A stretch of 64,000 nucleotides of DNA from a bacterium (GTDB lineage Bacteria; SZUA-79; Acidulodesulfobacterales; Acidulodesulfobacteraceae). A program made the position numbers and the translations under genes. This document shows, piece by piece, positions 5,537-49,863 of the stretch; position 1 is the first letter of the stretch; every line of letters starts with the position of its first letter. A model generated the notes under the pieces. The model saw only the letters and a list, made by a program, of their open reading frames with translations. It was not told the origin of the DNA and searched no databases. The stretch spans positions 1-64,000 of the forward strand of contig JAKAOK010000007.1 in NCBI GenBank assembly GCA_021812245.1. Reading direction: 5' to 3'.

Positions 5537-5893
5537 TTGATAGAAAGAAATAAAAGGGTAGCGGAAATGATAGCTAGGGAAGTTTCTTTGTGTTTGGAAT
5601 TTGAAGTAAACGACGCTAGATTGAAAAACGTTACTATTATAAGCGCCGAAATTTCAAAGGACTTAAAATTCTGTAAAGTATTTTTCAGCGTATTGGGCTC
5701 TGAAAAAGAAATAAAAAAAACGTTAAGCGGTTTCGAAAGTTCCAAAAATTTTATTAAAAAAAATGTTTTTTCCAAGGTTCTTTTGAGGGTAGTGCCGGAA
5801 ATCAGGTTTGAATATTACGGCGGATTACAAAAGGCTTTTGATATAAACACGATTATAAACGAATATAATTCTACAAAACAAACAATAAAATAA
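5537..5893 (+). CDS. rbfA: Ribosome-binding factor A
   Basis: Size, synteny, and RVAEMIAREVS...VPEIRFEYYGG motif; TTG start with SD upstream. Confidence 0.9.
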   Translation: MIERNKRVAEMIAREVSLCLEFEVNDARLKNVTIISAEISKDLKFCKVFFSVLGSEKEIKKTLSGFESSKNFIKKNVFSKVLLRVVPEIRFEYYGGLQKAFDINTIINEYNSTKQTIK

Positions 5894-5899
5894 ACAATT

Positions 5900-7027
5900 A
5901 TGGTATCTATAAAAAAAGAATATTCCGTTTCAGACTTAAAGACTTTAAATAATTACGCCGATGAGATATTCAGAATTATAGAAACATCTAAAAAAGTTCT
6001 CATAGCGACGCATGAAAACCCTGAAGGCGATGCCATAAGTTCGGCAATAGCGATGGGTATTTTTTTAAAAACTATAGACAAAGACGTTTATTTATACGAT
6101 AAAGACCAGATACCGAATAATTTAAAATTTTTACCGCAGGTCGATAAATTTTTAAACGAGTTTCCGAAAGAACCCATAGATTTGCTTATAGTCGTAGATT
6201 GCGGGGAATTCTCGCGCATCGGGGCTAATTACGAACAACTCTCCGGCATAAACAGAATAATTAATATCGACCATCATTTTACAAACACTTTTTTCGGACA
6301 TTCTAACCTCGTACTGCCCGATGCAAGTTCTACAGGTGAAGTTCTCTTCTATCTTTTTTTGGCATATGGAGCTTATGTAAACGATATTGTATATTCTCCC
6401 TTCGATAGTTTTCTCGGGGACAAACTTGGCGAACCACCTCTTCCCTGTGGGATGGAAGAAAGAAAAAAAATATTATCGTTTGTAACCGACGACATTGCTC
6501 TGTCTTTATATACGTCTATATTGACCGATACCGGTTCTTTTCATTATTCTTCGGCGAATAAAAGGGCTTTTTATATATGTTCCGTTTTAAACGAATATAA
6601 TTTAGACCCTGCTAAAATAGCCACCGAGCTTTTTGAAACTAAGCCCGCCGAGATGTATTTTTTGCTGGGGAAAAGTTTAAACACGCTCGAATTTTCCTCC
6701 AACGGAAAGGTAGCCTCTATGGTTGGAACCAAGAAAATGATAGAAGATGTTTTAAAGGAAGCGGATGGGAACAGGATTAACGGCTTATACGAAAATTTCG
6801 TAAATTATCCAAGGTCTATTCAGGGAGTCGAAATAGCGATATTTTTCAGGGAAACCGGATTCAATCAATATAGATTGAATTTCAGGTCTAAAAGTTATGC
6901 AAACGTCGCTTACGTTGCGGAGAAGTTTGGCGGCGGCGGACATAAATTTGCTGCGGGATGTAAAGTAAGCGGCGATATAAACGAAATTAAAAACGAAGTA
7001 TATAAATATTGCGGCGAAATAATATAA
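5900..7027 (+). CDS. DHH/DHHA1 phosphoesterase (NrnA-like nanoRNase/pAp phosphatase)
   Basis: THENPEGDAISSAIAM, IDHH, DTGSFHYSS, FGGGGHKFAAG. Confidence 0.92.
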   Translation: MVSIKKEYSVSDLKTLNNYADEIFRIIETSKKVLIATHENPEGDAISSAIAMGIFLKTIDKDVYLYDKDQIPNNLKFLPQVDKFLNEFPKEPIDLLIVVDCGEFSRIGANYEQLSGINRIINIDHHFTNTFFGHSNLVLPDASSTGEVLFYLFLAYGAYVNDIVYSPFDSFLGDKLGEPPLPCGMEERKKILSFVTDDIALSLYTSILTDTGSFHYSSANKRAFYICSVLNEYNLDPAKIATELFETKPAEMYFLLGKSLNTLEFSSNGKVASMVGTKKMIEDVLKEADGNRINGLYENFVNYPRSIQGVEIAIFFRETGFNQYRLNFRSKSYANVAYVAEKFGGGGHKFAAGCKVSGDINEIKNEVYKYCGEII

Positions 7028-31424: not shown

Positions 31425-31443
31425 TAAGCGCAAACTGCGCTCA
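31425..31443 (-). promoter_or_regulatory. Candidate bSECIS hairpin downstream of the precursor UGA (hypothesis)
   Basis: Minus strand UGAGCGCA-GUU-UGCGCUUA (8 bp with one G:U), 12 nt after the UGA at 31458-31456, GU in apical loop, no following U-tract. Confidence 0.35.
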
Positions 31444-31455
31444 TTTGCATTCCTT

Positions 31456-31560
31456 TCAGGAGTAGCACGAATCCTTTAAGCCGTATCCCTCGGTAATTAA
31501 AGCGTAAAATTCTTCCGCGGGGATTTCAAGAAACAGCGGCGCATTATAGATCTTTTTCAT
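31456..31560 (-). CDS. RiPP precursor peptide (34 aa to first UGA; possible Sec extension to the UGA at 31443-31441)
   Basis: MKKIYNAPLFLEIPAEEFYALITEGYGLKDSCYS*; strong SD AAGGAGGTGA 5-6 nt upstream; start overlaps the end of the PqqD-like ORF; next to radical SAM/SPASM gene; shorter than the ORF track cutoff. Confidence 0.75.
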   Translation of the reverse strand: MKKIYNAPLFLEIPAEEFYALITEGYGLKDSCYS

Positions 31561-31840
31561 AAAGCTCACCTCCTTTTTCATTGTCGTTGTCATAAATATA
31601 TTTTTTATCTAAAAGAATGCGCACCAATCCTTCAAAATCCTTTTCCGCCTCCGTTATTGTTGCGTCAAAGCTTTCCGTTATGTTTAATAGTATGTCTTCA
31701 TCCGTATTTTTCCCGTCGCAAAGCGATAAAATTTCATACGATAATTCGTTAAGTTTATAAATATTACCGCTTATATTGTCGAAAAGCATAAAATTCTCTT
31801 CGTCCTGTTTTAAAGATACGGTATCCGCAAGTATTAGCAT
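31544..31840 (-). CDS. PqqD-family RiPP recognition element/peptide chaperone
   Basis: 98 aa; FMLFDNISGNIYKLNELSYEILSLCDGKNTDEDILLNITESFD. Confidence 0.85.
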   Translation of the reverse strand: MLILADTVSLKQDEENFMLFDNISGNIYKLNELSYEILSLCDGKNTDEDILLNITESFDATITEAEKDFEGLVRILLDKKYIYDNDNEKGGELYEKDL

Positions 31841-31901: not shown

Positions 31902-32921
31902 CTATATCCAGCATTGCGGGTCTTTAGAGTTTAAATCTCTATTATAATAATAGCTTATAGCTTTACACCCCCCGCACTTGTCGGCGTGGCTGCAACCTGC
32001 ACATCCGTTCTCCCCGTTCCTTTTTCTTAACTTCCACAAAATATCGGAGTTGTACCATACCTTAAAGAGTCCGTCGGTTAAAATATTTCCGAGCGGGAGA
32101 TAAAGCCTTCTGCATGGAAGCAGGGCGCCGTCATGCAGTATGCATAGCGACGATAAGCCTGCAGGGCAATATCCGCCGGCATTTTCGTCTATCAGATTCC
32201 ATAGCGGGCGGGATACTGAAAGTTTAGTATTTTTATTTTTAAATTCTGTTTTTGCACTGGCGTAAACATCGAAATAAACGTTTTTTAGGTCGGAAGCTTC
32301 GATGAAAAATTCATCCCTTTCTATATCGCTCATAGCCGTCATTCTTTCCACCGTTAAAGCATCTATGTTTAGCAAGGCGGCGAGTCTCGGCATATTGGAT
32401 GCCGATCCGATATTTTTTTTATGAAGAGTGAACATTACCGCGGTTTTAATTCCGGAATTTTTAAGCATTTTAATAGAATTTATCGTTTTCAAAAATGTTC
32501 CTTCTCCTCTGACGCCGTCATGGGATTCTTCATCATGTCCATCGAGGGAAACTTGAACTTCGGCTAATTTTTTATAATTTTTAATCTTTTTAATCAGTGT
32601 GTTATCGATAAGCGTTCCGTTGGTCAAAATCGCAATATTTTTGAAATTATCCGAGCTTTCAATCATATCCATTAAATAAAAAAGTCCTTCTGGTTTCAAA
32701 AAAGGTTCTCCTCCGGTAAGGGAAACGAAACATTTCATTTTCCATTTTGCCATCGCTTCATCTAATTTCAGAAATATATCCTTTAAAATATTTAAATCTA
32801 AGGTTTTATGATTATAATCGTTTTGATAGCAATGGACACATCTCAGGTTGCATGAGTCTATAAAATGCCATTGCACGTAAAAATCTTTATTTATATTTTT
32901 TTTATCGTTGTATCCGTCCAT
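31902..32921 (-). CDS. Radical SAM/SPASM peptide maturase
   Basis: CNLRCVHC, SLTGGEPFL, and SPASM cysteines CPAGLSSLC...CRR...CAGCSHADKCGGCKA. Confidence 0.93.
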   Translation of the reverse strand: MDGYNDKKNINKDFYVQWHFIDSCNLRCVHCYQNDYNHKTLDLNILKDIFLKLDEAMAKWKMKCFVSLTGGEPFLKPEGLFYLMDMIESSDNFKNIAILTNGTLIDNTLIKKIKNYKKLAEVQVSLDGHDEESHDGVRGEGTFLKTINSIKMLKNSGIKTAVMFTLHKKNIGSASNMPRLAALLNIDALTVERMTAMSDIERDEFFIEASDLKNVYFDVYASAKTEFKNKNTKLSVSRPLWNLIDENAGGYCPAGLSSLCILHDGALLPCRRLYLPLGNILTDGLFKVWYNSDILWKLRKRNGENGCAGCSHADKCGGCKAISYYYNRDLNSKDPQCWI

Positions 32922-48807: not shown

Positions 48808-49863
48808 ATGACGTCTAATAAGTACAAACTTACAAACCTGACAAGTGCCCACGGCTGAGGGTGCAAGATAGGTCCGGAGGACCTTTCTAAAATTCTCGAA
48901 AAATTGTCCGTGCCTGAAAACGACAATGTTTTAGTCGGGTTCGGATATAAAGACGATGCAGGCGTTTATAGAATCAACGACGATACATGTCTTATTCAGA
49001 CCGTAGATTTTTTTACTCCGGTCGTGGATGACCCCTATTCTTTCGGTCAGATTGCCGCAGCCAATGCTCTTTCGGATGTTTATGCCATGGGGGGGAAGCC
49101 TTTAACGGCGTTAAATATTGCCTGTTTTCCTATAAACGATATAGAAAAAGAGGTTTTTAATCTTATACTTATGGGCGGATTAGATAAGATTAAAGAAGCT
49201 GGCGCCGCGCTTTTAGGGGGTCATTCAATCGATGATAAAGAAATAAAATACGGTCTTAGCGTTACTGGTATATGCGGCATAGATGAAATTTATTCAAATA
49301 GCGGCGCGGAACAGGGGGATATTCTATATCTAACTAAAAGTCTCGGTACTGGATTTGCCGTAAGCGCCATATGTACGGATTTTCTTAATGAAGATACGCT
49401 GAACGAGGCTACGCTGTCTATGTCGAAGCTAAACAAATATGCTTCCGAATTAGCGGTTTCTTTAATGTCGCCTAATGCCGTAACCGACGTTACCGGGTTC
49501 GGGCTGATAGGGCATCTGAGCGAAATGATGATTGCAAGCGGAACCAGATGTGAAATAGACTTGAATTCCCTTCCCGTTATAAACGGTGTTCCGGAATTGA
49601 TAAAAAAGGGCATTAATCCGGCGGGAACAAAGCGCAACAGAAAATATTTCAGCGAATATACGTCTATGAAAGACGGGCTTGAGGAAAATTTATTATGGAT
49701 AGCTTTTGGGGCGGAAACTTCGGGGGGTTTAATATTTTCGGTTCCGAAAGACAAAGCCTCTGAAACGGAAAAAATATTTAAAATCAAGGGCGAACCTCTT
49801 TATAAGATAGGCAGGGTTTTAGATAAAAGCGTAAAAGACGGCATTTATATAAACATAACATAA
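48808..49863 (+). CDS. selD: Selenide, water dikinase SelD as a selenoprotein (in-frame UGA = Sec at 48856-48858)
   Basis: ATG 48808 reads MTSNKYKLTNLTSAHG-U-GCKIGPEDLSKILEKLSV then continues in frame into the listed ORF ([39 protein letters not shown]-type motifs). Confidence 0.95.
48870..48884 (+). promoter_or_regulatory. Probable bSECIS hairpin of selD
   Basis: AGGTCC-GGA-GGACCT, 6-bp perfect stem beginning 11 nt after the UGA. Confidence 0.65.

Follow-up and report, generated by a model that had tools for sequence, protein, structure and literature searches.

A predicted family of selenocysteine-containing peptides encoded beside radical SAM/SPASM enzymes and shortened by gene finders at an in-frame UGA

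The closest described system to the locus presented here is that of SbtA and SbtM, the latter a thio(seleno)oxazole maturase (Lewis et al., 2021, as cited in PMC11002830 and PMC13188914). The excerpted text of the 2026 prokaryotic selenoprotein catalogue gives one selenium RiPP family, the selenobacteriocin family (TIGR04081), with the motif SGUG (PMC13188914). We found SbtM genes above the cut-off in 27 of 297 genomes and inspected the flanks of 20 loci, where the SbtA-type precursors beside SbtM carry an LKK-LAG-IA leader and a Gly/Ser-rich core containing UGA, for example SGUGG. A search within open-licence papers returned no precursor with a C-x2-U-x2-C core. Here we describe such a precursor, encoded in a window of 64,000 nucleotides (the whole stretch of DNA that was analysed); this precursor has neither an SbtA-type leader nor an SGUG core. 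By comparison of its homologues, the peptide appears to represent a new family of modified selenopeptides, which gene finders shorten at a UGA codon. We hold it to be highly probable that the locus as a whole is best explained by a 39-residue precursor with selenocysteine (Sec) at residue 35, decoded through SelB and a SECIS element and matured by a PqqD-like protein and a radical SAM (rSAM) enzyme.

The precursor gene, its homologues and the in-frame UGA

Read directly from the sequence, the precursor ORF runs for 34 residues, MKKIYNAPLFLEIPAEEFYALITEGYGLKDSCYS, up to a UGA at 31458-31456, and it is preceded by a good ribosome-binding site (ggaggtgagctttATG). The UGA is followed by AAG GAA TGC AAA (KECK) and then by a second UGA at 31443-31441 (Table 1). 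The preliminary description of this DNA had reported the same peptide, tail, second UGA and hairpin, and our reading agrees with it. No Pfam or NCBIfam model matched any of the precursors that we tried.

Table 1. Positions of the features discussed in the text; sites in other loci are given by locus and position.
Feature	Position	Strand	Evidence or remark
Precursor peptide gene, 39 codons with UGA35 = Sec (predicted)	31441..31560	(-)	leader MKKIYNAPLFLEIPAEEFYALITEGYGLKD, core SCYS-U-KECK
In-frame UGA, predicted selenocysteine codon (residue 35)	31456..31458	(-)	UGA 26 + UGC/UGU 10 in 36 homologous copies
Precursor true terminator UGA	31443-31441	(-)	direct sequence reading
Putative bacterial SECIS element, UGAGCGCA-GUU-UGCGCUUA hairpin, apical AGUU	31425..31443	(-)	overlaps true terminator codon
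PqqD-like protein (98 aa), probable RiPP leader-recognition protein	31544..31840	(-)	PF05402 43.8 bits
Radical SAM/SPASM protein (339 aa), probable maturase	31902..32921	(-)	PF04055 75.5 bits, PF13186 SPASM 28.2 bits
selD, UGA/Sec gene (HGUGCK)	48808..49863	(+)	TIGR00476 368 bits
Double-UGA precursor sites	L135:3840, L144:3852, L154:3870, L166:2587, L168:2395, L175:882, L192:1660 (first UGA), L228-L259		

With the UGA read as Cys, the window peptide finds relatives in 27 of the 30 genomes searched in the phylum, distributed over six genera of one family; the 30 genomes sampled all belong to that family and are apparently metagenome-assembled. From the surrounding DNA we extracted 36 copies (34 distinct) that are readable through the core. 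Codon 35 is UGA in 26 of them and a Cys codon in the other 10, and UAA, UAG or any other sense codon never occurs; the distinct copies have TGA (24), TGC (6) or TGT (4) and nothing else. The next residue is K or R (AAA, AAG, AGA), followed by E, S, A or G and then by an invariant Cys (TGC in 27 and TGT in 7 of the 34 distinct copies), after which comes K, F or T. Synonymous changes are seen in the codons past the UGA (AAA/AAG, GAA/GAG, TCC/TCT, TGC/TGT), and the true terminator moves freely among TAA, TGA and TAG, with an extra Lys codon before it in some copies. A natural twin is present in genome G012, which carries CYV-UGA-RACF and CHT-UGC-RACF with an identical downstream hairpin, apparently the outcome of a recent Sec/Cys swap. 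Synonymous drift in the tail, Sec/Cys exchange, and drift of the terminator but not of the inner UGA are together predicted by translation through the UGA. The preliminary description had named a UGA/UGC exchange at position 35 as a supporting observation, which is borne out by 10 copies, and it had named two observations that would speak against Sec; neither occurred, as UAA and UAG are absent from codon 35 in the 36 copies and the sequence past the UGA is conserved. A degenerate copy of the precursor, with a TAA in the leader and the altered tail SCHS-UGA-KQYKK, was also observed at L101:6058-6174 and is apparently a pseudogene.

The genome encodes tRNA-Sec (70.5 bits, cut-off 47) and selB (305.5 bits), whose absence had been put forward as a third argument against Sec, and selB is matched in 29 of the 30 phylum genomes, 27 of them above the curated cut-off. 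In the window itself, the UGA of selD (48856-48858) lies inside HGUGCK, and a stable hairpin, AGGUCC-GGA-GGACCU, follows 11 nt downstream; the likeness between this hairpin and that of the precursor, pointed out in the preliminary description, holds up in the identity of selD, its UGA and the spacing. The joint presence of tRNA-Sec, selB and a UGA-type selD indicates that the Sec pathway is present and presumably in use. The features by which a selenoprotein gene is recognized, namely Cys homologues at the UGA codon, conserved downstream sequence and Sec machinery in the genome, are all found here, and the UGA at 31458-31456 is very likely read through with insertion of selenocysteine. A general recoding of UGA to sense (for example as Trp or Gly) would also have codon 35 of the precursor translated, which is the sole point for it, but the precursor gene itself ends with UGA, both in the window and in several relatives, the replacing residue is always Cys, and selB, tRNA-Sec and the Sec-type selD are in place. 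We give such a change of code practically no credence.

The hairpin downstream of the UGA

Starting 12 nt past the first UGA, the window hairpin, UGAGCGCA-GUU-UGCGCUUA, is the fold of minimum energy, with 8 bp and −9.9 kcal/mol. Set against shuffled sequences it is modest when taken alone (z = −2.0; 7 of 200 shuffles fold equally well), so its significance comes from conservation in the homologues. All 26 UGA-type copies have a hairpin with the loop AG[U/G]U located 18-25 nt past the UGA, and the stems vary in sequence yet pair (GCGC/GCGC, GUGC/GCAC, GCGU/ACGC, UGUGC/GCACA). The hairpins were aligned on the loop because the length of the spacer varies. Among the 18 distinct hairpins, 84.9% of the cells are paired and five of the seven pairs have changed on both sides (13 cells), a covariation score that none of 500 shuffles reached, and slid registers are only 22-57% paired. 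Of these two controls the slid register is the more reliable, since sequence relatedness inflates the shuffle test. The AGUU hairpin is kept in one of the 10 Cys copies (that of G012), and in the other nine it has either been lost or is altered in its loop or stem. The preliminary description had taken the hairpin as support for Sec and had proposed conservation of the KEC tail and hairpin as a check. The single sequence is weak in this respect, as its z value indicates, but the geometry is correct and the hairpin is conserved in 26 of 26 UGA-type copies with compensatory changes in the stem.

By the published rules, bacterial SECIS elements have a loop of 3-9 nt, a stem of 4-16 bp, a G in the first two loop positions, a distance of 16-37 nt from UGA to loop and a minimum free energy of −7.5 kcal/mol or lower (PMC13188914). 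The window copy falls within these limits, whether it is read as an 8-bp stem with a GUU loop or as a 7-bp stem with AGUUU, as it has 19-20 nt from UGA to loop and −9.9 kcal/mol; the hairpin of one homologue, at −7.1 kcal/mol, is slightly short of the energy rule. An Rfam scan of the 64-kb window gave no match, hence no SECIS match. A pattern search for the hairpin motif in the same genome found 6 sites and its reversed control 7, which means that the motif alone is not specific.

Taken alone, the window sequence, including a hairpin with z = −2.0, is compatible with an ordinary stop at the first UGA, in which case the peptide would end ...DSCYS, and what follows, the K-x-C codons and the hairpin, would be coincidental or a terminator. 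The homologues argue against this: none of the 36 copies has UAA or UAG at the codon and 10 replace it with Cys ahead of a like tail, the downstream Cys is invariant amid synonymous drift while the second stop varies freely, and the hairpin covaries and, in the window copy, is without a U-tract. We therefore regard a plain stop as extremely improbable.

The rSAM-PqqD operon and its relatives

The 3′ end of the PqqD-like gene overlaps the start of the precursor by 17 nt, and the genes for the rSAM, the PqqD-like protein and the precursor are adjacent in that order on one strand in 18 loci. A small precursor beside rSAM/SPASM and PqqD-type proteins, found here in several lineages, is the arrangement by which a radical SAM/SPASM RiPP system is recognized, and the conserved gene order makes it likely that the two proteins mature the precursor. 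In G001, G007 and G010 the precursor lies away from the rSAM-PqqD pair, which is found elsewhere in the genome, and in G008 (97% complete) the Sec precursor is intact but an rSAM orthologue is missing; for this reason another enzyme may act on it, or the link between precursor and rSAM may be looser. Beside the precursor of G001, and at two precursor sites of G009, pieces of the rSAM 5′ end survive (L093:6336-6500, L087:4-111, L111:56-190), which suggests that the maturase was lost in place there. The window neighbourhood (Pal/OmpA, BioC, BioF, DnaJ, BioB) looks like an ordinary chromosomal context, and neither a dedicated exporter nor a dedicated peptidase was seen repeatedly beside the precursor.

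Two further observations were made around these loci. Small, apparently secreted DsrE-family proteins stand beside several Cys-type copies (L079:331-801, L085:4878-5348), a possible link to sulfur trafficking. Beside rSAM copies in two genomes (L104:1872 onward; L101, about 5700-6000) there is an FmdB-like zinc-ribbon ORF with the end ...EAIACGKTGGGFG-UGA-GT-TAA, possibly a further selenoprotein.

An rSAM profile scan over one genome per species identified enzymes 44-47% identical to that of the window in Candidatus Hydrogenedens, Ruminococcus, Roseburia and a WOR-3 bacterium. Each locus has the rSAM, then a PqqD-like gene (called by size, position and sequence character), then a small ORF ending CFGCTNCNC or similar, and the leaders carry a Tyr-x-x-Pro type motif. 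These operons share with the window family the gene order, a related rSAM and a C-x2-C-x2-C core at the end of the leader, but have Cys where the window family has Sec. The genomes of the four lineages gave no selB match at E 1e-70, and no Pfam or NCBIfam model matched their all-Cys precursors. In the rSAM tree the enzymes of the window family and of the CFGCTNC operons form one clade (99/97, and 100/99 in a rebuilt tree). Operons of rSAM and PqqD with a longer core, C-x2-C-x2-C-x2-C, were observed at L108:4021 (-) and L128:4631 (+) (CRQCSSCHACR and CVQCSSCHGCS), with a squalene-hopene-cyclase-like protein following them (a Pfam match in the case of L108).

Sec could also be inserted into a free-standing mini-selenoprotein, a redox or metal-binding CxxUxxC peptide that escapes modification by rSAM and whose neighbours act elsewhere. 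Precursors that stand apart from the rSAM in several genomes, and the one genome without an rSAM, fit this idea, and CxxUxxC would resemble the spacing of metal or Fe-S ligands. However, the rSAM-PqqD-precursor order is kept in 18 loci and in four distant lineages with C-x2-C-x2-C cores, a leader-like N-terminus is conserved separately from the core, and G001, G007 and G010 have retained their rSAM-PqqD pairs at other sites, all of which makes an unmodified peptide unlikely.

Under our preferred reading, a Sec35 precursor matured by its neighbours, SelB and Sec-tRNA-Sec would decode the UGA at 31458-31456, aided by the SECIS hairpin at 31443-31425, to give the C-terminal core S-C-Y-S-U-K-E-C-K (C-x2-U-x2-C). 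Translation would end at the UGA at 31443-31441, which would escape recoding because it is too near the hairpin. The leader (M-K-x-x-Y-x-x-P...E-E-F) would be presented by the PqqD-like protein to the radical SAM/SPASM enzyme encoded next to it, and the latter would oxidize the Cys/Sec residues of the core or positions adjacent to them, yielding either a thio(seleno)oxazole, as SbtM does, or a thio/selenoether to an alpha carbon. As the flanking side chains vary and the three chalcogen positions are fixed, the chemistry is most likely centred on Cys and Sec themselves plus the backbone. Given that no exporter or peptidase recurs and that the gene is kept throughout the group, the product might perhaps be an intracellular Se/S redox or metal-binding peptide and not a secreted antibiotic.

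More distant rSAM relatives have, just upstream of the enzyme, a small ORF ending C-x-x-UGA-K-x-UGA-K-S-stop. This double-UGA family occurs in Nitrospirota, Desulfobacterota and Chloroflexota. It was found in 38 of 296 Nitrospirota genomes, where every match has exactly two in-frame TGA, and in four genomes of the phylum of a Deltaproteobacteria bin, half of them with two TGA and half with one. In the 33 copies that we read, a few of which are the same locus twice, the codon at core position 7 is always TGA and that at position 4 is TGA 30 times and TGC three times; the terminators are TAA (15), TGA (14) and TAG (4). Nearly all copies have a G-loop hairpin 15-18 nt past the second UGA, and this one hairpin may serve both UGAs. 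A selB gene is present in seven of the eight double-UGA genomes checked, and the rSAMs form a separate clade (100/99). NCBIfam gave no match to the five precursors tried, and no PqqD-like gene was noticed beside the precursor in the four loci examined. Judged by its sequences, the core C-x2-U-K-x-U-K-S marks a candidate Sec-RiPP family of its own. Variants with Cys first and Sec second (CLSCKGUKSK, CLKCKSUKSK) were observed at L174:3960, L260 and L261 and are natural Cys/Sec swaps.

We think it probable that a RiPP class with Cys or Sec at every third residue (C-x2-[U/C]-K-x-[U/C]-K) has been overlooked because gene callers stop the peptide at the first UGA. The class would be at least partly Sec-based, would extend over several phyla outside SbtA and at least two rSAM lineages (C-x2-U-x2-C and C-x2-U-x2-U), and would have small selenium cofactors or metal ligands as its products. 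A separate selenium RiPP family that differs in core, leader and enzyme clade, is retained throughout a whole bacterial group and includes natural Sec/Cys pairs suggests a wider use of selenium in ribosomal peptides than is recorded, and the window family provides defined substrates for studying what Sec contributes beyond Cys to radical SAM chemistry.

Comparison with SbtA/SbtM and other radical SAM systems

The window rSAM has its best NCBIfam match in TIGR04082, SbtM (E 5.8e-40), but its 137.5 bits are below the cut-off of 350 and barely above its scores for ACGX and GeoRSP. This match and the Sec in both precursors are what would speak for placing the window family in the SbtA/SbtM thio(seleno)oxazole system as a divergent member, and in both a radical SAM/SPASM enzyme is encoded next to a short precursor whose core has UGA/Sec. 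Nevertheless, the SbtA-type leader and core (SGUG) share nothing with those of the window peptide (C-x2-U-x2-C), SbtM has about 190 extra N-terminal residues whereas the window family has PqqD as a separate gene, and SbtM and the window rSAM fall in separate clades of the tree. Three SbtM rows of the first tree were probably in wrong frames, and a tree rebuilt with two SbtM rows only gave the same clades. Membership in SbtA/SbtM is thus very unlikely. On the comparative evidence, a plain stop, a general code change and SbtA/SbtM membership were all rejected. The preliminary description had pointed to predicted selenium-containing, rSAM-modified peptides from Geobacter-type genomes; Sec in an rSAM-associated peptide is indeed the common element, but the score (137.5 of 350 bits) and the clade set the window system apart from SbtA/SbtM.

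ACGX (TIGR04340) and GeoRSP (TIGR04303), both related rSAM/SPASM systems, are matched at 135 and 128 bits, far from their cut-offs of 400, and the ACGX repeats are absent from the window precursor. The PapB model gave 85 of the 340 bits it asks for against the window rSAM. The sactipeptide and ranthipeptide maturases (SkfB, PapB) share the enzyme superfamily with the window rSAM, and SkfB (6efn) is its nearest solved structure by profile (E 2.5e-23). The window family would thus resemble SbtA/SbtM in its use of Sec in an rSAM-associated peptide while standing, on its leader, core and enzyme, outside that system.
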